Part shown: positions 704 through 12,074 of the stretch, in pieces | Position numbering within the stretch: position 1 is the first letter of the stretch | Layout: the number at the start of each line of letters is the position of its first letter | NCBI GenBank assembly: GCA_024404435.1 | Contig: JAKSPW010000017.1 | Coordinates: forward strand, 1-13,772 | Direction: 5' to 3' | DNA length: 13,772 nucleotides | From: Clostridia bacterium | Lineage (GTDB): Bacteria > Bacillota > Clostridia > Oscillospirales > CAG-272 | Program-made: the position numbers and the translations under genes | Notes under the pieces: generated by a model | Seen by the model: only the letters and a program-made list of their open reading frames with translations | The model's database searches: none | Told to the model about the DNA's origin: nothing

Positions 704-1498
704 ATGAAGCTTTTACTGAAAATCAAATATAACGGTGCGCCGTACTGCGGTTTTCAGTATCAGCCGGACGCACCGACGGTGCAGGGGACGCTGACCGAAA
801 AGATTTCCGAAGCACTCGGGTTTCCCGTCACCGTGACGGGCTGCAGCCGTACGGATGCCGGAGTACACGCGCTCGGCTACGTCGCGGCAGTCGCGCCGCG
901 AGAGACGGAAAAACAGGACACCGAATGGTGCACCGTTCCGTCTTCAAAGCTGCACAGAGTGATAAATCAGTGCCTGCCCGAGAGCATCGCCGTCATCGGT
1001 GCGTGCCGGGTGGATGACGCATTCCATCCGAGATACGACGCCGTCGGGAAAGAGTATATCTACCTCATCGACGACTCGGTGACCGCCGATCCGTTCGGTG
1101 TGGGCAGATCATACCACGTAAAGAAAAAACTGTCGGACGCCGATATCGGAAAAATGAACGAAGCGGCGGAAAAACTGCTCGGAAAACACGATTTTTCCGC
1201 ATTCATGGCGTCGGGCTCGTCAGTTACCGATACGGTAAGGACATTGACAACTCTTCACGTCGAACGCGACGGGGCATACGTTAAGGTGACTGCCGCCGCA
1301 GACGGATTTCTGTACAATATGGTGAGGATACTCACCGGGACGCTTCTCGGCGCTGCCGCCGGAAGCATAGACGTAAACGATATCCCGAAGATCCTCGCCT
1401 CGGGCGACCGCTCCGCATCCGGTGCGACCGCGCCCGCCCACGGGCTGTACTTAAACCGCGTTTTCTATGCGGAGGAGCCCGTATTTGAAGCTGACTGA
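704..1498 (+). CDS. truA: tRNA pseudouridine(38-40) synthase TruA
   Basis: This cytoplasmic enzyme isomerises uridines 38, 39 and 40 in the anticodon stem-loop of tRNAs to pseudouridine. The product has 264 residues, slightly longer than the usual 245-260. The N-terminus has the family pattern KIKYNGAPYCGFQYQP. The catalytic motif CSRTDAGVHALG places the nucleophilic aspartate at D51. The C-terminus ends with the typical PAHGLYLNRVFY stretch. The ATG at 704 is chosen because the first residues match the conserved first beta strand and because a short SD (GAGGA, 696-700) overlaps the ecfT stop codon. The next gene starts 14 nt downstream, so it is probably part of one operon. In many Firmicutes rplM and rpsI follow truA; here they do not. 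Confidence 0.98.
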   Translation: MKLLLKIKYNGAPYCGFQYQPDAPTVQGTLTEKISEALGFPVTVTGCSRTDAGVHALGYVAAVAPRETEKQDTEWCTVPSSKLHRVINQCLPESIAVIGACRVDDAFHPRYDAVGKEYIYLIDDSVTADPFGVGRSYHVKKKLSDADIGKMNEAAEKLLGKHDFSAFMASGSSVTDTVRTLTTLHVERDGAYVKVTAAADGFLYNMVRILTGTLLGAAAGSIDVNDIPKILASGDRSASGATAPAHGLYLNRVFYAEEPVFEAD

Positions 1499-1512: not shown

Positions 1513-2787
1513 ATGAGAAGCGACGAAGTCAGACGGCGCCGCGAAATGAACGCGGAAAAGCGCAGATTGCGCGTCGATGAGGACGAGACCATCCGCGTCG
1601 ACGGACATATTAAGGACAGAGAAAACAGATACTATAAAAAAGCCTCCGAAAGGTTCAAGACCGCAGGCTTCATACTGCTCCTGATGCTCGTGCTTTTCGG
1701 CGGGGTAATGCTCCTCAGATACCGCGAATATATTACCTATGGCAATTTCGTGTACCTGTTCCGCGACTTCGGAAGCGTTGCGTTCGGATCGGACGGCGAG
1801 TATTCCGAAATAGCTTATAATTCGCAGGAAAAAATGACCTTCGAGCAGTTCAGGGACGGCTTTGCCGTCGTTGGCACGAACTCCGTTTCCGTTTACGACA
1901 AGACGGGAGTCGAGATGTGCTCGGGTGACGAAGGGTTTTCATATCCGGCAGTCGGAACGAGCGACAAGTATCTGCTCGCGTACGACGTCGGAGGAGAGGG
2001 ATATTCGATCTACAATTCCATCACGCGCATCGTTTCAAAGAAGACCGATTTCCCGATAATTACGGCGTCTGTCAGTGACGAGGGCTCGTATATCATCACG
2101 ACGGAGTCCGATAAGGCGAAATATGTGACGGAGCTCTATTCCTCCGCACTTCGCCGCAAAATGAGCATTTACAAGGAAAAATACGTTATCGACGCCGCGA
2201 TCGACAGAGACGGGAAAACGATCGTGATCGCTTCCGTCGACGACTCCGGAACGGGCTTCTCGTCCGAGGTGGCGTTCTACTCGTCGGGCATGACGGATGC
2301 CGTGGCGGTGAAAAACTATCAGATGACGATGCCGATTTCGGCAGAAAGCCTGAAAAACGGCGTGTTCGCGGTCCTTTTCGACGACTCGCTGAGACTTTAT
2401 TCCGACTCGGGAGAAGTGATCCTCGAGAAATCATTCGGCGGCGCCGACGTGACCGGATTTGACAACGCGGGAGACAGAGCTCTCGTCGTCTGCCGCGAAA
2501 ACGGTCTCGGCACGGTATGCAGGGTCTATCTGTTCGACGGAGACGGCAATACTGTTCTCGACACCGTCGTGAACACCCGCATCACGAACGCATCCTGCGC
2601 GATCCCGGGAAGCACTTTCGCGGGATACGTCGTAACTCCCGACGGGATACTCGGGATAAAGGAGGACGGCTCCTCCGAAAAATTCGATTTTACGGGTGAC
2701 GTCCTCGACGTGACGGATACCGAGGGCGGACCGCTCATCTGCACTCCGACGGGAGCCTACCCGCTGAAGAAAGAGAATAACGACTGA
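1513..2787 (+). CDS. DUF5711-type single-pass membrane protein with predicted beta-propeller-like outer domain
   Basis: The function is unknown. The 424-residue product begins with a highly charged cytosolic segment (about residues 1-50, many Arg/Lys/Glu), followed by one clear membrane helix at about 51-68 (AGFILLLMLVLFGGVMLL). The remaining 350 or so residues are probably extracytoplasmic. They contain repeated short beta-rich units with a D/G turn, such as SDEGSYIITT, DRDGKTIVIAS, LRLYSDSGEV and YLFDGDGNTV, as expected of a WD40/PQQ-like propeller. Overall length, topology and the position directly before a CvpA-family gene fit the DUF5711 family of Clostridia; this assignment is from recollection, not a search. 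A strong SD (AAGGAGG, 1499-1505) lies 7 nt before the ATG. It ends 11 nt before the next gene. Other uncharacterised propeller proteins would look similar. Confidence 0.75.
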   Translation: MRSDEVRRRREMNAEKRRLRVDEDETIRVDGHIKDRENRYYKKASERFKTAGFILLLMLVLFGGVMLLRYREYITYGNFVYLFRDFGSVAFGSDGEYSEIAYNSQEKMTFEQFRDGFAVVGTNSVSVYDKTGVEMCSGDEGFSYPAVGTSDKYLLAYDVGGEGYSIYNSITRIVSKKTDFPIITASVSDEGSYIITTESDKAKYVTELYSSALRRKMSIYKEKYVIDAAIDRDGKTIVIASVDDSGTGFSSEVAFYSSGMTDAVAVKNYQMTMPISAESLKNGVFAVLFDDSLRLYSDSGEVILEKSFGGADVTGFDNAGDRALVVCRENGLGTVCRVYLFDGDGNTVLDTVVNTRITNASCAIPGSTFAGYVVTPDGILGIKEDGSSEKFDFTGDVLDVTDTEGGPLICTPTGAYPLKKENND

Positions 2788-2798
2788 AAGGGAAGACT

Positions 2799-3524
2799 AT
2801 GATAAGTATAATTGCTGACGTACTGATAGCCGCGGTGATGGTATTCACCATCGTAATGGCTGCGAAAAAAGGACTCATCAAGTCCGTGACGGGACTGATC
2901 AAGGGAGCGGTCTCGTTCATAGCCGCGTACGCATTCACACCGATGCTCAGCGGGCTGATCTACGACAAATTCATGCTCGGGCGGATCTCGGGCGGTATCG
3001 AAAAGACCCTTCTGTCTCTTTCCGGAGACGGCTCGGGAACGTACGATCTTGCCGGCATGTTCGACAAGATGGACTCTTCGCTGAAGCAGATAATCGACAG
3101 ATACGGCGCAGACGCGTCTGAGGTCGGAGAGCTTTGCAAGAGCTCTGCGGCAAGCGAGAGCTCCGTTGAAAAGCTTGCCGATTTCATCGCTCATCCGGTT
3201 GCTGACATGATCTCGTCGGCTCTTGCCTTTATTGGCATTTTCGTCGCCGTATTCCTTGCTCTGACGATCCTTGCATTCATCCTCGACGCGATCTTCCATC
3301 TGCCCGTTCTAAAGAGCACGAACAAGTTCCTCGGTTTCGTCTTCGGAATCGCCGAGGCTCTGATCCTTGCGGTGTTCATAAGCAGTGCCGTCGCGGCTCT
3401 CGTCCGCGGGCTCGGCTCGGTGAATTCGGATCTCTTCGGAGACAAGGTGGTCGAGAGCTCATATTTGCTGAAATTCTTTTCGACGGTCGATCTGTTCGGC
3501 CTCGTCGGAACGGTCGTGAAATGA
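2799..3524 (+). CDS. CvpA family membrane protein
   Basis: This 241-residue integral membrane protein belongs to the CvpA/colicin V production family. The family is widespread and linked genetically to envelope stress and bacteriocin-related phenotypes, but has no settled biochemical role. Four hydrophobic segments are visible: about residues 3-22, 32-51, 134-163 and 167-192. The N-terminal pair with KKGLIKSVTGLIKG between them and the later LPVLKSTNKFLGFVFGIAEA are typical of the family. A polar insertion of about 75 residues (about 55-130) lies between helices 2 and 3, which is longer than in short CvpA proteins and seen in many clostridial members. The SD AAGGGA (2788-2793) follows the preceding stop directly. 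Its neighbours are the DUF5711-type membrane protein and a Clp unfoldase, which suggests an envelope-quality role, by inference only. Confidence 0.87.
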   Translation: MISIIADVLIAAVMVFTIVMAAKKGLIKSVTGLIKGAVSFIAAYAFTPMLSGLIYDKFMLGRISGGIEKTLLSLSGDGSGTYDLAGMFDKMDSSLKQIIDRYGADASEVGELCKSSAASESSVEKLADFIAHPVADMISSALAFIGIFVAVFLALTILAFILDAIFHLPVLKSTNKFLGFVFGIAEALILAVFISSAVAALVRGLGSVNSDLFGDKVVESSYLLKFFSTVDLFGLVGTVVK

Positions 3525-3549: not shown

Positions 3550-5853
3550 ATGGTAATGTGTTCCAGATGCCATAAGCGTATGGCAGTAGTATTTCTCACA
3601 AAGATCGACAACGGCGAATCGAAGCAGGAGGGACTTTGCCTCAAATGCGCAAAGGAACTCGGCATCAAGCCGATAAACGATATACTCGAGCAGACGGGTC
3701 TCGACGAGGAGACCATCGACCGTCTCGGCGAAGAGATGGAAGGCTTCCTCGACGAGCCCGAAATGTCGTCTCTCGTTGACGGAGGCGGCGGGGAAGCGGA
3801 CGGAAAAGCGCCGATACTCGACTTCAAGAAACTGATGAACGAGGGGCTTTTCGGCGGCAAAAAGGAAGAAGAATCCGCAGGGACCGCAAAAGAAAAGAAA
3901 AAAGACAAAAAAGGCGAGAAAAAGAAGGAAAGCAAGTATCTCGGAGTATATACGCAGAATCTGACCGCACGCGCGAGGGCGGGCGAGCTCGACGAGATCG
4001 TCGGGCGTGACCGCGAGCTTGAACGCGTGATACAGATACTCTGCCGCCGCCAGAAGAACAATCCGTGTCTTATAGGCGAGCCCGGCGTCGGCAAAACGGC
4101 GATCGCGGAGGCCCTTGCGATCAGGATCGCAAAGGGCAACGTGCCTTATAAGCTGAAGGATCACGATATCTGTCTGCTCGACCTTACGGCTCTCGTCGCG
4201 GGCACCCAGTTCAGGGGACAGTTCGAGTCCCGTGTTCTCGGGCTTCTCGGCGAAGTGAGAGAAAGAGGAAACGTCATCCTCGTGATCGACGAGGTACACA
4301 ATATCGTCGGCGCGGGCGACGCCGAGGGAAGCATGAATGCCGCCAACATCCTGAAACCGGCGCTTTCCCGCGGAGAGATACAGATAATCGGCGCGACGAC
4401 GCTGACTGAGTACAGAAAATATATCGAGAAGGATTCGGCCCTCGAAAGACGCTTCCAGCCCGTGACGGTGGAGGAGCCGTCGGTCGCCGATACCGTGGAG
4501 ATACTCCGCGGCATCAAGGGCTACTATGAGAATTATCACGGCGTGAACATCCCCGCCTCCGTTGCGGAGAGCGCCGCAAAGCTTTCGGAGAGATATATCA
4601 CCGACAGATATCTGCCGGATAAGGCGATCGACCTCATCGACGAGGCGGCGTCCCACGTTTCGATCCATTCTCCGTGCATAAACGAGAGACACGAGCTTGC
4701 AAACAGACTCCGCGAGGTCACGTCCGACAGGGAAGCTCTCGAAAACGAGACTCCCGAAGAAAAGGACGCGGAGGCAAGGTATTCAAGACTTGCAGAGCTG
4801 AAGAGTGAGGAAATGAGGCTCGAGGCGAGACTTAAGGAGCTCGACGAGGAATGCGGAAAGGTCACCCTCAGGGTGTCCGACCTTGCCGACGTCGTCGAGA
4901 TCTGGACGGGGATCCCCGCCTCAGACATTTCCGAAAACGATTTTGAAAGACTCGAAAAGCTCGAGGAGAGACTTTCCCGCCGCATCATCGGTCAGTCCGA
5001 GGCGGTGAACGCGGTCGCACGCGCCGTCAGACGCGGCAGAGTAGGCGTTTCGACGAAGCGCCGCCCGGTTTCGTTCATCTTCGCAGGCCCCACCGGAGTC
5101 GGTAAGACGGAGCTGGTAAAGGTGCTCTCCGAGGATCTTTTCTCCTCCCCCGAGACGCTCATCAGACTCGACATGAGCGAGTTCATGGATAAATTCTCCG
5201 TGTCACGCATCATAGGCGCACCTCCCGGATACGTCGGCTACGACGACGCGGGGCAGCTCACCGAAAAGATCAGAAGAAGACCTTATTCCGTCGTGCTTTT
5301 TGATGAGATCGAGAAGGCTCATCCGGACGTGCTCAACATTCTTCTGCAGATCCTCGACGACGGGCGCATTACCGACGCGCACGGCAAGACGGTCAGCTTT
5401 GAGAATACCGTCATCGTCATGACGACCAACGCGGGCAGCAGCAACTTTACTTCTCCCGTGGGCTTTTCGGGCTCAGCGGAGACGCTCGCGAAGGACAGAA
5501 CGCTGAAGGCGCTCTCCGAATTCCTGCGTCCCGAATTCATCAACCGTGTCGACGAGATCATCACTTTCAGAGCGCTTGACCGCGATGATTTCGTAAAGAT
5601 CGCGGGCATCATGACGTCCGAGATGACGTCTCTTCTTGCCGACAAGGGCATAAAGGCTTCGTTCACGGACGCGGCGGTCGCATATATTGCCGAAAAGTCT
5701 TTCTCGACGAAGTACGGCGCGAGAAACATGAGAAGATTCATACAGACAGAGATAGAGGACAAGGTCGCCGAAGCGGTGATAGCCGCAAGAGGAGACGTTA
5801 CCGCCATCTCCGTCGATGCCGATGAAAACGGCATCATACTTCAGTCAGTCTGA
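3550..5853 (+). CDS. ATP-dependent Clp protease ATP-binding subunit, ClpE/ClpC-like with N-terminal zinc finger
   Basis: This 767-residue class I (two-AAA+) Hsp100 unfoldase is expected to thread substrates into ClpP. The N-terminus carries a ClpE/McsA-type zinc finger with C4, C7, C30 and C33, followed by an acidic helical segment and a Lys/Glu-rich linker (about 104-130). The usual paired Clp_N repeats of ClpC are absent. AAA-1 has Walker A GEPGVGKT (176-183), Walker B D247-E248 and Arg-finger region ERRF (299-302). A coiled-coil middle domain spans about 378-437. AAA-2 has Walker A GPTGVGKT (513-520), Walker B D585-E586 and R666 in PEFINRVDE. A V637-G638-F639 tripeptide sits where ClpC/ClpE proteins carry the ClpP-docking loop, so partnership with ClpP is likely. 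The start at ATG 3550 has AAAGG upstream; ATG 3556 is a possible alternative. It is closest to ClpE in layout, but a gene name is withheld because clostridial versions form their own group. Confidence 0.93.
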   Translation: MVMCSRCHKRMAVVFLTKIDNGESKQEGLCLKCAKELGIKPINDILEQTGLDEETIDRLGEEMEGFLDEPEMSSLVDGGGGEADGKAPILDFKKLMNEGLFGGKKEEESAGTAKEKKKDKKGEKKKESKYLGVYTQNLTARARAGELDEIVGRDRELERVIQILCRRQKNNPCLIGEPGVGKTAIAEALAIRIAKGNVPYKLKDHDICLLDLTALVAGTQFRGQFESRVLGLLGEVRERGNVILVIDEVHNIVGAGDAEGSMNAANILKPALSRGEIQIIGATTLTEYRKYIEKDSALERRFQPVTVEEPSVADTVEILRGIKGYYENYHGVNIPASVAESAAKLSERYITDRYLPDKAIDLIDEAASHVSIHSPCINERHELANRLREVTSDREALENETPEEKDAEARYSRLAELKSEEMRLEARLKELDEECGKVTLRVSDLADVVEIWTGIPASDISENDFERLEKLEERLSRRIIGQSEAVNAVARAVRRGRVGVSTKRRPVSFIFAGPTGVGKTELVKVLSEDLFSSPETLIRLDMSEFMDKFSVSRIIGAPPGYVGYDDAGQLTEKIRRRPYSVVLFDEIEKAHPDVLNILLQILDDGRITDAHGKTVSFENTVIVMTTNAGSSNFTSPVGFSGSAETLAKDRTLKALSEFLRPEFINRVDEIITFRALDRDDFVKIAGIMTSEMTSLLADKGIKASFTDAAVAYIAEKSFSTKYGARNMRRFIQTEIEDKVAEAVIAARGDVTAISVDADENGIILQSV

Positions 5854-5868
5854 GGAAGGAGGCCGACT

Positions 5869-8598
5869 ATGGCATATAGCGGAAACGAGTGGCATCTGCG
5901 TGATGCCGAAGCCGTAGCGGCGGCACTCGACACCGACATATATAAGGGACTTGACCGGCGCGTGGCGGCAAAAAGGCGCAGGCGCGACGGTGCAAACGAT
6001 ATCTGGCAGGTCAGCCGCACCTCCGCGTCGGAGTATGCTCTCAGATGCGTCGGTGACCTCACCGCTGCGGTACTCATAATCGCAGCTCTCACTGCGGCAA
6101 TATTCGAGTCGAACGCCATCGCGGCTGCCGTCTGTGCAATACTCGCCGTCGGCGTTGCGCTGCGCGTCGTGACCTACGTCAAGGCCCGCCGCACTCTCGA
6201 GGAGATGGCTGACGAGGGCATTCCGAACGCCACAGTCATAAGGAACGGTACGTCTGAGGTCGTCCGTGCCGACAGGATAGTCACGGGAGACGTGATAATC
6301 CTCGAAGCGGGCGACATTGTGCCCTGCGACGGCAGGATCGTGTCCGGCGACGAGATCCGCGTGAGCGAGCGCGGGATCACCGACAACAAGTCCGGAGTTA
6401 TCAAAAGAAACACGGTCATCATGACCGATTCCGCCGGGACGGACGTTCCGTGCGAATACAGAGTCAATATGCTCTTTGCGGGCTCGTGCCTGCTCACCGG
6501 GCAGTGCCGTATGATCGCCACCGCCTGCGGGGACGACGCGCTCGTTTCCATGAGATACGGCGGACTGCTCATCCCCTCCGGCGAGGAGATCCCCGTCATG
6601 GAACGCCTCGGCAGATGGTGCAGGACGGGCACAGTCATAATGCTTATTTCGGTCTTCCTCATAAGTGCGCTTTCCGTCGGAGTACACGTCGTGACGGGAA
6701 GAGACTTCAGCTTCGCCGACGCTTTCATCGACGCGATGGCTCTTGCGGCAGCATCGGTCAGCAGCTACCTCGTGACCTCCGGCTACGTGACGATCACGAT
6801 ACCGCTGATGCGCGCCGCAAAGGCGGAGTCGGGCAGGGCTATCGTAAAGGATGCCTCCGATATCGAAAAGGTCGCGTCCGTCAAAAGGCTCATAGTATCC
6901 GACATTTCGATGTTCAAGACGGGAAAGGCGGAATACGCATACTACTCGACCGACGGGACTCTTCACAAGGTGACACGCGGAGACGCCGGTGCGGAGAGAC
7001 TGCTTCGCGCAGTTCATCTGACGACGAAGGGCTCGGCGTCCTCGTCGGCACCCGTGGCGGCAGGTACTCTTTCCGAGACGAAGGGCTCGGTGATCGTCGA
7101 AAAAATATGGGAAAGCTCGGCGGAAAAATACGGTTTTGACAAATCACCCGACATGAAGAGGATCGCCGTGGATCACGCGATAACGAAAAACGTGAACGGA
7201 AGCTCCGACAACGTGATCGTGGTGACGGACGGAAGATACGAGGCACACGTCAGCGGTGACGTGCGCGACGTTCTCTCGTTCTCCGACAGATACATAAAGG
7301 ATGGCAGGGAAACGAGGCTCACAGACCGTGTGAGAGAGGAGATCCTCCGCACGGCGACCGAGGCTGAACGCTCGGGCGGCACCGTAACGGCTCTCGCTCA
7401 CAGAGACTCGCCTTACACTTCTCTCAAGAGAATATCGGTGCTTCAGAGCAATATGTGCTTCGACGGCTTCATCGTCTCCGACGAGGAGGCTGAGGCGGGA
7501 GTGACCGACGTGACCGCAAGGATGAAGAGATACGGCATGTCCGTGATCCTTCTGTCGTCGAGCCCCGTGACAGACTCGGCATATCTCGAAAAAGCGGGCA
7601 TCAGCAAATCCTCGGTTCCCGTGTTCACCATCGGTGACGTGGCTGAGAAGAGCGAATTCCCGCAGGGTAGCTTCATCGTGAGCGTTCCTCCGCGCCGCGA
7701 AAGCGGAGGCAAGATCGAGCACGATGCGAAGCTCCGCATGGCGGCGGTCAGATTCCTCACGGACAAGCTGAGCGATTGCGCCGTACTCACCTGCGAGCCT
7801 TCCGAATCGGGAATGATGGCTGAAAAGACAGTCGGAGTGGCGGTCAGCCGTTCATACGACAGACCGATCCCGCAGACGCTGAAGCGCAAGGCGGAGGTCT
7901 CGGTCTACCCCTCGACGGGACGCGGATACGGCGGCTTCACCGAAGCGGTGAAAGCAGTCTGCGCATCCGTCAGATCACTTGAAAACCTCAGGAAATGCGC
8001 GCTTTATTCCGTCATTTCGGGCTGTGCACGGCTTGCCTGCACTCTCCTGTCCGTGATCACGGGGATCGCCGCCGTGAACGCCGCGAGCATTCTGCTCCTC
8101 GGCATGATATTTGACTTCTGCGCGATGCTCGTCATCTCGTTCGCTCCGGGCGACGGGACGGCAGGTCACGAAGAAAGCATGAGACAGGTCCCCGACAGGA
8201 GTGAAGTCGTGAAGTTCTCCCTGATCGGTGCCGCCTGCGGTGCCGTCTGCTATGCGGCGGCGGTGCTCGCGGAAAGATACTTCGGAGGCGGCGGAACGAT
8301 AGCTGCCGGGACGGCGGCACTGATGCTTTCGGGACTCGTGCTCCTCAGCGAATTCCTCATCGGAAACCTGGAAAACGAGAAGAAGGAACGCTTCGGAACG
8401 GCATACGTCGCTTATGCCGCAGTTTGCCTGATCTTCACTCTCCTGTTCGCCGTTTCGGGCGGAGTCTGCGGAATGCTCGGAGACGTCCGTCCGCACCCGC
8501 TTACCGTCGCGGCAGCCGCTGCATCGGCGATCGTGATCTTCGCTGCCTTTGAGGTGACAAAGTACTGCCTGCGGCGCGGTAAAAGCGAAACAAACTGA
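5869..8598 (+). CDS. P-type cation ATPase homologue lacking catalytic motifs (predicted pseudo-ATPase)
   Basis: This 909-residue membrane protein has the layout of a P2-type (Ca2+-like) pump. The N-terminal cation-ATPase domain starts at WHLRDAEAV. Membrane pairs lie at about 61-79/82-103 and 253-276/286-314, with an actuator domain between them that retains AGDIVPCDGR (147-156). A large P/N cytosolic region spans about 315-705, and six further helices lie at about 711-897. The chemistry is missing. The TGES loop reads TDNK (171-174). The PEGL site in M4 reads YLVT (300-303). DKTGTLT is reduced to D345 followed by ISMFKTG. KGAPE reads SGDVR (462-466). TGD reads SSS (563-565). GDGVND reads CEPSES (642-647). 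D749 in M6 is kept. The reading frame is intact, codon use matches its neighbours, and a strong SD (AAGGAGG, 5856-5862) lies 6 nt before the ATG. It starts 15 nt after clp and is the last gene before a terminator. ATP-driven transport is unlikely; a scaffold, sensor or regulatory role is inference. Homology is confident, function unknown. Confidence 0.88.
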   Translation: MAYSGNEWHLRDAEAVAAALDTDIYKGLDRRVAAKRRRRDGANDIWQVSRTSASEYALRCVGDLTAAVLIIAALTAAIFESNAIAAAVCAILAVGVALRVVTYVKARRTLEEMADEGIPNATVIRNGTSEVVRADRIVTGDVIILEAGDIVPCDGRIVSGDEIRVSERGITDNKSGVIKRNTVIMTDSAGTDVPCEYRVNMLFAGSCLLTGQCRMIATACGDDALVSMRYGGLLIPSGEEIPVMERLGRWCRTGTVIMLISVFLISALSVGVHVVTGRDFSFADAFIDAMALAAASVSSYLVTSGYVTITIPLMRAAKAESGRAIVKDASDIEKVASVKRLIVSDISMFKTGKAEYAYYSTDGTLHKVTRGDAGAERLLRAVHLTTKGSASSSAPVAAGTLSETKGSVIVEKIWESSAEKYGFDKSPDMKRIAVDHAITKNVNGSSDNVIVVTDGRYEAHVSGDVRDVLSFSDRYIKDGRETRLTDRVREEILRTATEAERSGGTVTALAHRDSPYTSLKRISVLQSNMCFDGFIVSDEEAEAGVTDVTARMKRYGMSVILLSSSPVTDSAYLEKAGISKSSVPVFTIGDVAEKSEFPQGSFIVSVPPRRESGGKIEHDAKLRMAAVRFLTDKLSDCAVLTCEPSESGMMAEKTVGVAVSRSYDRPIPQTLKRKAEVSVYPSTGRGYGGFTEAVKAVCASVRSLENLRKCALYSVISGCARLACTLLSVITGIAAVNAASILLLGMIFDFCAMLVISFAPGDGTAGHEESMRQVPDRSEVVKFSLIGAACGAVCYAAAVLAERYFGGGGTIAAGTAALMLSGLVLLSEFLIGNLENEKKERFGTAYVAYAAVCLIFTLLFAVSGGVCGMLGDVRPHPLTVAAAAASAIVIFAAFEVTKYCLRRGKSETN

Positions 8599-8609
8599 CA
8601 AAAAACGAC

Positions 8610-8647
8610 AAATCCGGCAGATCTGAAAAGATTTGCCGGATTTTTTT
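8610..8647 (+). terminator. Rho-independent terminator after the P-type ATPase homologue
   Basis: A 15-bp inverted repeat (8610-8624 with 8629-8643) encloses a GAAA tetraloop. All pairs are Watson-Crick except one G-U. Seven T residues follow at 8641-8647. It lies 11 nt after the stop codon at 8598 and ends the ecfT-to-pseudo-ATPase transcription unit. The downstream promoter supports a boundary here. Confidence 0.93.
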
Positions 8648-8728: not shown

Positions 8729-8769
8729 ATTATGCGAGGTATTTTGGCATAAATATTTCACAGTATTTT

Positions 8770-8776
8770 GAAAGGA
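8770..8776 (+). promoter_or_regulatory. Ribosome binding site deciding the mrp start
   Basis: GAAAGGA lies 12 nt before the ATG at 8789. A TTG at 8768 is in frame but overlaps this SD-like element, so it cannot be the start served by it. The spacing to 8789 is slightly long but workable, and translation from there begins with the MAENN and Cys-rich segment expected of the family. Confidence 0.6.
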
Positions 8777-8788
8777 ACCGCATCCAAG

Positions 8789-9634
8789 ATGGCTGAAAAC
8801 AACAGTGAGTGCACTCACGACTGCTCCACCTGTTCGGCTAACTGCTCCTCAAGGCAGGCTAAGATCGAACACGATCCGCTGAACGCGGCAAGCAGCGTAA
8901 AGCACGTTATCGGCGTTGTCAGCGGCAAGGGCGGCGTCGGAAAGTCGATCGTCACCTCACTGCTTGCCGCAACGATGCAGAGAAGAGACAACAAGGTCGC
9001 CATTCTCGATGCCGACGTCACGGGACCGTCTATCCCGAAGGCGTTCGGAGTAAAGGGTGACGTGGTAGGCACGGGTGACGCTCTCATACCGCTTACGAGC
9101 AAAACGGGCATCGACATCATGTCTGTGGCTCTTCTCCTTCCGGAGGAAACGAGCCCCGTCGTATGGAGAGGACCGGTCATTGCCGGTGTCGTAAAACAGT
9201 TCTGGGGCGAAGTGCTCTGGGAAAACGAAGACTATATGTTCATTGATATGCCGCCGGGAACGGGTGACGTTCCGCTGACGGTGTTCCAGTCGATACCGCT
9301 TGACGGCATCATCGTCGTTACGACTCCTCAGGAGCTCGTCTCGGTGATCGTCGAGAAGGCACTCAACATGGCGGGACTCATGAACATCCCCGTGATCGGA
9401 GTCGTCGAGAATATGTCCTATGTGAAGTGTCCCGACTGCGGCAAGGTGATCGAGATCTACGGTGAGAGCCGTACCGAGGCGCTCTGCGCGGAGCGCGGGA
9501 TCGACTTCCTCGGACGCATTCCGTTCGATCCGTCGCTTGCGAACCTTTGCGACAAGGGCATAATCGAGCTCTTTGAGAACGATTACGTCGAAAAGGCGGC
9601 AGACGCCATCGAAAGCTTCGTCGCCAATAAATAA
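8789..9634 (+). CDS. mrp: Mrp/NBP35 (ApbC) family Fe-S cluster carrier ATPase
   Basis: This 281-residue cytoplasmic P-loop ATPase of the MinD/Mrp family binds and transfers [4Fe-4S] clusters to apoproteins. The N-terminus has a Cys-rich ferredoxin-like segment CTHDCSTCSANC (C8, C12, C15, C19; CX3CX2CX3C). The deviant Walker A is GKGGVGKS (46-53), followed by DADVTGPSIP (switch I region) and IDMPPGTGDV (Walker B/switch region). The C-terminal bridging-cluster motif is CPDC (C214, C217). Length and motif order are complete for the family. The start is set at ATG 8789 rather than the in-frame TTG at 8768. It is the first gene after the promoter at 8700-8728 and lies 37 nt upstream of hydC with no terminator between, so co-transcription with the hydrogenase is likely. 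A role in supplying clusters to HydABC is inference. Confidence 0.95.
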   Translation: MAENNSECTHDCSTCSANCSSRQAKIEHDPLNAASSVKHVIGVVSGKGGVGKSIVTSLLAATMQRRDNKVAILDADVTGPSIPKAFGVKGDVVGTGDALIPLTSKTGIDIMSVALLLPEETSPVVWRGPVIAGVVKQFWGEVLWENEDYMFIDMPPGTGDVPLTVFQSIPLDGIIVVTTPQELVSVIVEKALNMAGLMNIPVIGVVENMSYVKCPDCGKVIEIYGESRTEALCAERGIDFLGRIPFDPSLANLCDKGIIELFENDYVEKAADAIESFVANK

Positions 9635-9671
9635 AAAATAAAAAACAATATATATCAGGAGGATACATCCA

Positions 9672-10163
9672 ATGAAGAAACCCATGACTGCAGTTCCGTT
9701 CACGGAAACAGCCGAGCAGAAGGCAAAGCTTGAAGCGATCATTGCGGCTCACAAAGGAGAAGCAGGAGCACTCATGCCGATCCTTCAGGAAGCTCAGGAC
9801 GTTTACGGCTACCTTCCGATCGAAGTTCAGCGCCGCGTTGCGTTCGGACTCGAAATCCCCGTATCAGAAGTTTACGGAGTTGCAACATTCTACTCGCAGT
9901 TCCTTCTCAACCCGAAGGGACAGAACCCCATCAACGTATGCCTCGGTACAGCCTGCTACGTTAAGGGCTCCGGTCAGATCATGGAAAAGCTCGAAGAGAT
10001 CCTTAAGATCCCGTGCGGCTCCATCACTTCCGACCTCAAGTTCAGCCTTGACGCTACGCGCTGCGTCGGCGCATGCGGCCTTGCTCCCGTCATGATGATA
10101 GGCGAAGACGTTTACGGACGTCTCGAGCCCAGTCAGCTTGAAGGCATCCTTGCCAAGTATTGA
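9672..10163 (+). CDS. hydC: NADH-dependent [FeFe] hydrogenase subunit HydC (NuoE/HndA-like, [2Fe-2S] thioredoxin fold)
   Basis: This 163-residue soluble subunit is homologous to the 24-kDa NuoE subunit of complex I, and its length matches HydC of trimeric hydrogenases. An N-terminal helical bundle with LMPILQEAQDVYGYLP and VYGVATFYSQF is followed by the thioredoxin-like [2Fe-2S] domain, with ligands C90 and C95 (CLGTAC) and C131 and C135 (CVGAC). It should relay electrons beside the flavin subunit HydB. A very strong SD (AGGAGG, 9657-9662) lies 9 nt before the ATG inside an A/T-rich spacer. hydB follows 48 nt after the stop. From this gene on, codon choice shifts toward that of highly expressed genes (AAG for Lys, few GCG Ala codons). 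nuoE or hndA would be equivalent names. Confidence 0.95.
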   Translation: MKKPMTAVPFTETAEQKAKLEAIIAAHKGEAGALMPILQEAQDVYGYLPIEVQRRVAFGLEIPVSEVYGVATFYSQFLLNPKGQNPINVCLGTACYVKGSGQIMEKLEEILKIPCGSITSDLKFSLDATRCVGACGLAPVMMIGEDVYGRLEPSQLEGILAKY

Positions 10164-10211
10164 TGGCAGGATATTTAACGAAATAATTAAAGCATAGAAA
10201 GGAACCATATA

Positions 10212-12074
10212 ATGAAATCTCTTGAAGAAATTATGGCGATCAAGGAGCAGGTGCAGAGCGAGCTTTCCTTTGAGAACAATCCCGACGGTATCCGCGTTCT
10301 GGTCGGCATGGCGACCTGCGGTATCGCTGCAGGAGCACGCCCCGTGATGGACGCTCTCGTCGAAGGTGTCAAAGCCGCAGGACTTGAGGGCAAGGTCACG
10401 GTAACCGAGACCGGCTGTATCGGTATCTGCCAGTACGAGCCTATCGTTGAGATCTACGAAAAGGGCAAAGAGAAGGTTACATACGTCAAGATGACGGCCG
10501 ACAAGGCAAAGGACGTTCTCGAGCAGCACATCAAGGGCGGCAAACCCGTTGAAGATTACTTCCTTAAGGACGCTGACGGCACACCGAAGTCTTCTCTCGC
10601 TGAAACGAACTTCTACAAGAAGCAGAAGAGAGTCGCACTCCGCAACTGCGGTGTCATCAACCCCGAAAAGATCGACGAATACATCGGCAAGAGCGGTTAC
10701 CTTGCACTCGCAAAGGTCATCCGTGAAATGACTCCCGATGACGTTATCAATACTATCCTCGCTTCCGGTCTCCGCGGACGCGGCGGCGGCGGATTCCCCA
10801 CAGGCAGAAAGTGGATGTTCGCTAAGGCAAGCGTTTCCGACAAGAAGTACGTCGTATGTAATGCCGACGAGGGCGACCCCGGAGCATTCATGGACCGTTC
10901 CGTTCTTGAAGGCGACCCGCACGCAGTACTCGAGGCTATGGCTATCGCCGGCTACGCAATCGGAGCTGACGAAGGCTGGATCTACGTCCGCGCAGAGTAC
11001 CCGATCGCAGTCAGAAGACTCAAGATCGCAATCGAGCAGGCAAGAGAATACGGCGTGCTCGGCAATAACATCTTCGGTACGGACTTCAACTTCGATATCC
11101 ACATCCGTCTCGGTGCAGGCGCGTTCGTCTGCGGCGAGGAGACCGCTCTTCTCACCTCCATCGAAGGCAACCGCGGCGAGCCTCGCCCGCGTCCTCCGTT
11201 CCCGGCAGTCAAGGGACTCTGGGGCAAGCCGACCATCATCAACAACGTTGAGACATACGCAAACATCGCTCAGATCATCCTGAACGGTGCAGAGTGGTTC
11301 TCCAGCGTCGGTACGGAAACCTCCAAGGGTACCAAGGTCTTCGCTCTCGGCGGTAAGATCACGAACACCGGTCTCGTTGAGATCCCGATGGGCACGACTC
11401 TCCGTGAGATCATCGAAGAGATCGGCGGCGGCATCCCGAACGGCAAGAAGTTCAAGGCAGCTCAGACGGGCGGTCCTTCCGGCGGATGCATCCCGGCAGA
11501 ACATATCGATACACCTATCGACTACGATAACCTTATCAAGATCGGCTCGATGATGGGCTCCGGCGGACTCATCGTCATGGACGAGGACACCTGCATGGTC
11601 GACCTCGCGAAGTTCTTCCTCGAGTTCACGGTCGACGAATCCTGCGGTAAGTGTGCACCCTGCCGTATCGGTACGGTCAGACTCCTTGAGATCCTCAAGA
11701 AGATCACCTCCGGCAACGGCGAGATGGAAGACATCGACAAGCTTGAAGAGCTTGCAGCTTACATCAAGAGCGCATCTCTCTGCGGTCTCGGCCAGACAGC
11801 TCCGAACCCCGTACTCTCCACTCTCCGTTACTTCAGAGACGAGTACATCGCTCACATCAAGGACAAGAAGTGCCCGGCAGGCGTCTGCAAGAGCCTTCTC
11901 AGATATGAGATCGATCCCGACAAGTGCAAGGGATGCACGATGTGCGCAAGACAGTGCCCGGCAGGCGCTATCAGCGGCACGGTCAAGCAGCCTCACGTCA
12001 TCGATCCCGCTAAGTGCGTAAAGTGCGGTGCTTGCCTCACGACGTGTAAGTTCGGCGCTATTTCCAAGAAATAA
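10212..12074 (+). CDS. hydB: NADH-dependent [FeFe] hydrogenase subunit HydB (NuoF/HndC-like flavoprotein)
   Basis: This 620-residue NAD(H)- and FMN-binding subunit corresponds to HydB/HndC of NADH-linked, often electron-bifurcating, hydrogenases. An N-terminal [2Fe-2S] ferredoxin-like domain has C36, C69 and C73 (MATCGIAAGARP and GCIGIC). The NuoF core begins with the FMN/NADH glycine-rich loop LRGRGGGGFPTGRKW (187-201), then CNADEGDPGAFMDR and GEETALLTSIEGNRGEPRPR. An SLBB-like region follows, then the [4Fe-4S] ligands C478, C481, C484 and C524. The C-terminus carries two ferredoxin [4Fe-4S] motifs: C572/C575/C578/C582 and C602/C605/C608/C612. This fused layout matches the approximately 620-residue HydB type, so no separate small HndB-like [2Fe-2S] gene is needed. 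The SD GAAAGGA precedes the ATG by 8 nt. hydA starts 17 nt after the stop. Bifurcation of electrons between NADH and ferredoxin is family knowledge, not visible here. Confidence 0.96.
   Translation: MKSLEEIMAIKEQVQSELSFENNPDGIRVLVGMATCGIAAGARPVMDALVEGVKAAGLEGKVTVTETGCIGICQYEPIVEIYEKGKEKVTYVKMTADKAKDVLEQHIKGGKPVEDYFLKDADGTPKSSLAETNFYKKQKRVALRNCGVINPEKIDEYIGKSGYLALAKVIREMTPDDVINTILASGLRGRGGGGFPTGRKWMFAKASVSDKKYVVCNADEGDPGAFMDRSVLEGDPHAVLEAMAIAGYAIGADEGWIYVRAEYPIAVRRLKIAIEQAREYGVLGNNIFGTDFNFDIHIRLGAGAFVCGEETALLTSIEGNRGEPRPRPPFPAVKGLWGKPTIINNVETYANIAQIILNGAEWFSSVGTETSKGTKVFALGGKITNTGLVEIPMGTTLREIIEEIGGGIPNGKKFKAAQTGGPSGGCIPAEHIDTPIDYDNLIKIGSMMGSGGLIVMDEDTCMVDLAKFFLEFTVDESCGKCAPCRIGTVRLLEILKKITSGNGEMEDIDKLEELAAYIKSASLCGLGQTAPNPVLSTLRYFRDEYIAHIKDKKCPAGVCKSLLRYEIDPDKCKGCTMCARQCPAGAISGTVKQPHVIDPAKCVKCGACLTTCKFGAISKK

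Follow-up and report, generated by a model that had tools for sequence, protein, structure and literature searches.

The window considered here, a 13,772-nucleotide stretch of contig JAKSPW010000017.1 from a Clostridia bacterium (assembly GCA_024404435.1), carries on its forward strand a gene for a protein of 909 amino acids related to P2-type cation pumps, directly behind a gene for a ClpE-like Hsp100 unfoldase (Table 1). The protein is very probably a pseudo-pump, that is, a P2-type cation ATPase of the SPCA/LMCA kind whose catalytic and ion-binding chemistry is gone and whose fold is kept by purifying selection. An initial annotation, made from the sequence alone, had suggested a maintained pseudoenzyme because signature motifs were lost while 909 codons and a strong ribosome binding site were intact; the reading frame is indeed open from ATG to stop, with AGGAGG six bases upstream. 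The linkage to clp, the rebuilt ion site and the conservation of the actuator (A) domain described below go beyond that annotation.

End-to-end resemblance to P2-type pumps, as first proposed, is borne out by domain models and by near full-length structural matches. The best Pfam matches were E1-E2_ATPase (E 1.6e-20) and Cation_ATPase_N (E 2.6e-11), both above the cut-off; Cation_ATPase_C fell below its own (16.9 of 27.3 bits), and the hydrolase and nucleotide-binding (N) domain models gave no match at E<=1. By sequence, the closest solved relatives are the bacterial LMCA1 Ca2+-ATPases (phmmer, E 6e-27). An AlphaFold2 model (predicted local distance difference test, pLDDT, 90.1; predicted template modelling score, pTM, 0.90) matched human SPCA1 (hSPCA1, 8iwp) over 833 residues at 4.4 Å with a TM score of 0.77 in Foldseek, and LMCA1 (9evc) over 825 residues at 6.1 Å; root-mean-square deviations of 8-11 Å in many other structural matches are attributed to domain orientation. 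Homology and the predicted fold together place the protein in the P2 group of the P-type ATPase superfamily.

In this protein all five catalytic motifs are missing from their expected positions, DKTG[TS], GDGxND and TGE among them. The replacements first read in the actuator loop, in the N domain and at the TGD position of the phosphorylation (P) domain agree with the alignments, and GDGVND is likewise replaced; the stretch aligned with it, however, is TCEPSE and begins one residue before the CEPSES (642-647) originally named. More doubtful is the identity of Asp345, taken to be the retained phosphorylated aspartate: phmmer and MAFFT both align Ser344 with the catalytic Asp and Asp345 with the Lys that follows it. 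Reading Asp345 as the phospho-Asp was set aside as unsupported, as it needs a one-residue insertion and the Asp345 column holds Asp in only 12 of 58 motif-less proteins. The ion-site ligands of P2A Ca2+ pumps are M4 PE[GA]L, M5 Asn/Glu and M6 Asn/Asp (M4 to M6 being membrane helices), of which the window protein keeps the M6 Asp only; the canonical M5 Glu whose column holds Arg721 is presumably E771 in SERCA numbering. Another P-type ATPase of the host assembly (1.5 Mb, 80% complete) does have TGES, DKTGT and GDGVND.

Table 1. Features of the pseudo-pump gene and its surroundings in the window (residue numbers are those of the 909-amino-acid protein)
Feature	Position	Strand	Basis
Pseudo-P2-type ATPase, 909 amino acids, ATG to stop	5869..8598	+	Predicted: ten membrane helices and A, P and N domains
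Actuator loop TDNK (171-174), replaces TGES	6379..6390	+	Alignment
M4 Ser298, aligned with the helix-breaking Pro	6760..6762	+	Alignment
Ser344-Asp345, phosphorylation-loop position	6898..6903	+	phmmer and MAFFT alignments
SGDVR (462-466), replaces KGAPE, N domain	7252..7266	+	Alignment
SSS (563-565), replaces TGD, P domain	7555..7563	+	Alignment
TCEPSE (641-646), replaces GDGVND	7789..7806	+	Alignment
M5 Arg721, aligned with the canonical Glu	8029..8031	+	Alignment
M6 Gly745, aligned with the canonical Asn	8101..8103	+	Alignment
M6 Asp749, the canonical Asp, kept	8113..8115	+	Alignment
AGGAGG ribosome binding site, six bases before ATG, in the 15-nucleotide gap after the clp stop	5857..5862	+	Sequence
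Likely intrinsic terminator just 3' of the pseudo-pump gene	8610..8643	+	15-pair stem into T-run; -23.3 kcal/mol, z -6.9
ClpE-like Hsp100 unfoldase, 767 amino acids, two AAA modules, intact Walker motifs, GF tripeptide loop	3550..5853	+	Pfam and motif inspection
Zinc-finger-like segment (CxxC...CxxC) at the N terminus of Clp	3559..3648	+	Motif inspection
cvpA-like gene, upstream block member	2799..3524	+	Pfam and neighbourhood comparison
DUF5711 gene, upstream block member	1513..2787	+	Pfam and neighbourhood comparison
truA-like gene, upstream block member	704..1498	+	Neighbourhood comparison

The same losses recur throughout a clade of relatives. A protein database search, in which the 7995 candidates sharing most words were scored, gave 77 matches. 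The first 33 (P0001-P0033) are long relatives that cover 90-100% of the query at 32-100% identity, and DKTGT, GDGxND and TGES are absent from their places in all of them; the next three (P0034-P0036) carry the motifs, and later matches were checked in part. Once contained proteins were merged, 58 distinct motif-less genomic loci were available, two of them copies in one bin; two loci (L139 and L140) are counted as motif-less because a chance GDGLSD at residue 54 only mimics the motif. The nearest relatives found for the window protein are about 50% identical to it. In a search of 295 genomes of the order, the best 25 loci were all motif-less and the next five all canonical; of the lower matches six were fetched, two of them motif-less (genomes G216 and G316) and four canonical. 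No clade member inspected keeps DKTGT or GDGxND, and decay confined to the lineage of the window was not seen among them.

Motif-less loci with a family code fall in three families of one order (f1, f17 and f20). The 24 with titles are all metagenome-assembled genomes (MAGs) labelled Clostridia, Clostridiales, Eubacteriales, Oscillospiraceae or Ruminococcus, and a ruminant gut site is named for 14 of them. Members of the clade outside the order were sought among the 29 new top loci from a search of 391 genomes of the class, and none was seen there, all 29 keeping DKTGT and GDGVND. The two copies in one bin (L048 and L058, genome G022) are clp and pseudo-pump pairs on two contigs, their pumps 70% and their Clp proteins 93% identical, which may reflect duplication or a mixed bin. 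Two proteins of 811 amino acids (P0063 and P0067) form a second motif-less P-type group; their placement among canonical rows in the tree rules them out as members of the clade, and their motif loss is probably independent. No near relative of this pair was found in the class sample, where the best matches reached about 30% identity over part of the length.

Residue columns were counted in an alignment of the 58 motif-less proteins with 25 canonical ones drawn at random from 61, a set made up mostly of top search matches rather than a random sample of pumps, which tempers the comparison. Asp fills the phospho-Asp column in 1/58 motif-less and 25/25 canonical proteins, and the first Asp of GDG is present in 2/58 and 25/25, respectively. 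The corresponding counts are 5/58 and 25/25 for the Glu of TGE, 7/58 and 24/25 for the Lys of KGA, and 9/58 and 25/25 for the Lys equivalent to K684; the last Asp column of GDGxND is Asp in 36 of the 58. The TGES loop is mostly replaced by a T[ED]N[KR]-like loop in relatives of the window protein.

Loss on this scale is accompanied by evidence of maintenance. The ratio of nonsynonymous to synonymous substitution rates (dN/dS, NG86 method), computed for the 28 most alike of 50 qualifying pairs, was 0.064-0.210 in the 13 closest orthologue pairs (74-94% identity), far below 1, the threshold that the initial annotation had proposed as a check; these pairs stem from a few lineages, are non-independent and lie outside the window's own branch. 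More distant pairs gave values up to 0.36. In the same 13 pairs, where the genes were available, Clp gave 0.03-0.10 and truA, cvpA and DUF5711 0.09-0.26, the latter roughly equal to the pseudo-pump. The model of a divergent f17 member (genome G051; pLDDT 87.9, pTM 0.86), which matches LMCA1 over 810 residues at 5.0 Å, likewise has a full P-type fold. Homology, loss of catalytic residues and maintenance by selection, this last taken from orthologue pairs rather than from the window's branch, make the status of pseudoenzyme well supported. The rival that the genes are passive remnants, either pseudogenes on their way out or artefacts of MAG assembly or sequencing, could draw on the fast divergence of the clade, identity falling to 14-25% across genera and families. 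It is extremely improbable, being contradicted by full-length open frames in dozens of separate assemblies, the low dN/dS, the high-confidence fold and the kept genomic position, and decay or artefact was rejected on the first three of these grounds.

The membrane domain has been altered along with the catalytic one. The M4 Pro is found in 0/58 motif-less and 25/25 canonical proteins, the M6 Asn has become Gly in 58/58 versus 1/25, and the M5 Glu has become Arg or Lys in 42/58 versus 0/25. The M6 Asp is retained in 41/58 motif-less proteins, all 41 of which also have the M5 Arg or Lys, and in 24/25 canonical ones. The resulting M5 Arg/Lys and M6 Asp looks, from sequence, like an internal ion pair replacing the bound cation; plant H+ pumps have a similar M5 Arg-M6 Asp pair. 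The 16 loci without M5 Arg/Lys all come from f17 and f20, and since the split follows the tree, few events rather than 41 are represented.

Constraint has also moved within the cytoplasmic part, as measured by mean column identity with domain borders set by hand from the model. Canonical pumps are most conserved in the P domain (0.671, against 0.489 for the A domain), whereas motif-less proteins reach 0.235 in the P domain and 0.354 in the A domain; the P domain has lost most conservation, with a motif-less to canonical ratio of 0.35. In alignment A2 (36 proteins) the A domain stood at 0.673, the P domain at 0.448, and the N domain and M5-M10 at about 0.35. The A domain has thus taken over from the catalytic P domain as the main seat of constraint and is now the best-conserved part of the protein.

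These changes bear on a further rival, in which the protein is a non-canonical active transporter with another acceptor or energy source, as claimed for human ERMA/TMEM94. ERMA is without TGES and GDGVND and has DKQGI instead, yet ATP-dependent Mg2+ uptake needing Asp427 is reported for it (PMC13322241). The predicted fold of the window protein is also intact, and one clade member (L049, genome G025, positions 9112-11937) has Asp in the phospho column (DREGALT) and keeps TGEA, with no GDGxND, a point that counts against the pseudo-pump reading. It looks like the least degraded member and is possibly a relic of an intermediate state. Against such transport, the Asp said to be needed by ERMA is missing from its column in 57/58 proteins, the cation site is rebuilt in the three columns counted above, the P domain has relaxed most, and the pump status of ERMA is itself disputed (PMC12134183). 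Active transport appears improbable, though less so than decay.

The position of the gene is as constant as its motif loss. Of the 54 motif-less loci that could be decided, 53 have the pseudo-pump directly behind clp and on its strand, compared with none of 57 decidable canonical loci (of 61). Four motif-less loci had too little upstream sequence to decide; in two of these (from genomes G007 and G029) what is presumably the N-terminal part of the gene adjoins clp on another contig. All 38 clp/pseudo-pump junctions lie on one strand, the first candidate start falls less than 100 nucleotides from clp in 34 of the 38, and five have a candidate start 4 nucleotides inside clp. On the other side, the next downstream gene belongs to 24 families over 47 loci by a rough longest-open-frame rule.

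The signals within the window fit the same arrangement. A promoter scan, which found 4 sites against 1.8 expected, placed none in the gap between clp and the pump, and the hairpin behind the pseudo-pump gene makes this likely the last gene of the operon. A simple terminator scan did not list that hairpin, which was judged a terminator from its sequence and fold. No tRNA or Rfam element was found in the window at default thresholds. Farther downstream, in the stretch 8768-8791, the TTG given as the start of an mrp-like gene may be wrong, an in-frame ATG lying seven codons beyond it at 8789.

The gene upstream appears to encode a ClpE, as its product has a zinc finger at the N terminus, a pair of AAA modules and a ClpP loop with a GF tripeptide. 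It closes a block in which two ABC-like genes are followed by ecfT-truA-DUF5711-cvpA-clp, truA and ecfA being putative names. This block is old: within the window's genus, family and order, 54 of 59 genomes have DUF5711, and families that lack the pseudo-pump still show truA-DUF5711-cvpA-clp. The host genome shows one ClpP and a second Clp of 814 amino acids that is 52% identical, and at 80% completeness it may have more. In a genome without the pseudo-pump, a CDP-alcohol phosphatidyltransferase gene stands between cvpA and clp (L092, 2261-2836), and further families likewise have about 600 bases between cvpA and clp. In genome G018, a canonical P-type ATPase (L046, 5385-8171) lies tail to tail with the pseudo-pump.

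The distribution is most simply explained by one origin with later losses (or transfer), in view of the changes that all 58 loci have in common and their shared position next to clp. In one tree 25 motif-less rows form one side of a 100/100 branch, and in another 24 motif-less rows from f1, f17 and f20 are split from 16 canonical pumps at a 100/100 branch; both trees have long branches, variable letter make-up and midpoint roots, and their inner order is unsure. The loss of the M4 Pro and the M6 Asn-to-Gly change, common to all 58, fit one ancestral loss of pumping, and the single event is read from these shared changes only. The phospho-Asp and TGE appear to have disappeared afterwards and in separate steps, as a few members keep one or both, and with L049 inside the clade several losses of these two residues are probable. 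Behind clp, no intermediate whose motifs would work was found: a working pump in that position was sought in 34 further regions around DUF5711 genes, some of which end too soon after clp to decide, and no P-type gene with DKTGT was seen. Three of these regions (L087, L107 and L117) hold a motif-less P-type gene behind clp.

Given a pseudo-pump, a partnership with Clp, suggested by gene linkage, is slightly favoured, so that a maintained pseudo-pump most likely serving as membrane partner of a Clp machine has, as a whole, an even chance of being correct. Several observations weigh against this combined reading. The block also holds genes without an evident tie to Clp, such as truA and ecfT, and neighbourhood alone is therefore weak evidence. 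One downstream family accounts for 15 of the 47 loci, so the downstream side is partly conserved. One decidable motif-less gene lies away from clp (L181, 7939-10587, in the f17 genome G132), and clp occurs without a P-type gene behind it in three f1 genomes (G016, G031 and G032) and in a second block of G018, from which it follows that this Clp can do without the pseudo-pump. Clp proteins with and without the pseudo-pump as neighbour look alike in their zinc-finger cysteines, Walker pairs and ClpP loop, some Clp rows being partial or deviant (a different Clp was picked up at L052, and L075 has one Walker B change). The Arg/Lys-Asp pair, finally, is missing from all 16 f17 and f20 loci. The downstream neighbour of L181 is a TrmK-like tRNA methyltransferase.

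The mixed block, the stray locus, the Clp genes without a pseudo-pump and the common downstream family also speak for a different assignment, in which the pseudo-pump has a job unrelated to Clp, as a sensor of ions, pH or membrane state, a lipid-binding protein or a scaffold, and sits behind clp for suitable operon expression. This alternative deserves serious consideration, though it is judged somewhat doubtful: a junction with clp kept in all but one of the decidable loci contrasts with a downstream junction spread over 24 families, and a candidate start inside clp in five loci also counts against it.

Under the Clp partnership, the pseudo-pump, whose ten membrane helices and three cytoplasmic domains (A, P and N) are kept under purifying selection, would be made together with the neighbouring unfoldase and act as its membrane partner. 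The conserved A domain may dock the Clp ring or its substrate at the membrane, and the Clp-ClpP protease could thereby be recruited or gated for membrane or membrane-near substrates. The M5 Arg/Lys-M6 Asp pair would, in most members, occupy the former cation site, fixing the membrane domain in one state without ions. This full picture, a P-type fold turned into a non-pumping receptor or gate of an AAA+ protease, with ClpE-ClpP at the membrane, docking by the A domain and an Arg-Asp plug in most members, is offered tentatively and is less likely than not.

Dead relatives of P-type pumps seem hardly studied, and the case met in the literature searched, TMEM94/ERMA, is disputed. A widespread, ancient and evidently maintained loss in a bacterial clade offers help in deciding whether the P-type fold survives without pumping, and near-perfect linkage to a ClpE-like gene gives a testable lead to membrane-side regulation of Clp proteases in gut Clostridia. 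Annotation from the E1-E2_ATPase domain alone would be expected to label the motif-less genes as cation pumps. In the open-licence literature searched, no bacterial pseudo-P-type-ATPase counterpart was found, in keeping with the initial view that no such bacterial family had been described, and no P-type-fold partner of ClpE was named in titles or abstract openings among the matches listed.

Compared by published features and shared fold, TMEM94/ERMA appears to be the closest analogue. This human endoplasmic reticulum protein shares the P-type fold, including the ten helices and the A, P and N-like domains, has no TGES, and has GDGVND replaced (PMC12134183). One group detected no ATPase activity and saw no nucleotide or Mg2+ in its structures, and measured micromolar affinity for AMPPCP (PMC12134183). 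The other group reports Asp-dependent Mg2+ uptake, and notes that the nucleotide pocket is inaccessible in the structures (PMC13322241). TMEM94/ERMA differs in being eukaryotic and in keeping DKQGI with its Asp, with Mg2+ uptake reported by the latter group (PMC13322241); the motif-less clade goes further, as the Asp too is nearly always lost.

The P2A Ca2+-ATPases LMCA1, SPCA and SERCA are among the best structural matches over nearly the full length and differ in that the window's clade has other residues in place of their catalytic motifs, M4 Pro and M5/M6 ligands, except for the M6 Asp in most members. ClpE, a zinc-finger Hsp100 unfoldase, shares with the window's neighbour the N-terminal CxxC pairs, the two AAA modules and the ClpP loop. 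The iRhoms, pseudoenzymes used as membrane adaptors, have another fold and occur in other organisms, but they offer a likeness of role, a dead enzyme fold kept as the membrane partner of a proteolytic system, which is the kind of partnership that gene linkage suggests for the pseudo-pump and its ClpE-like neighbour.

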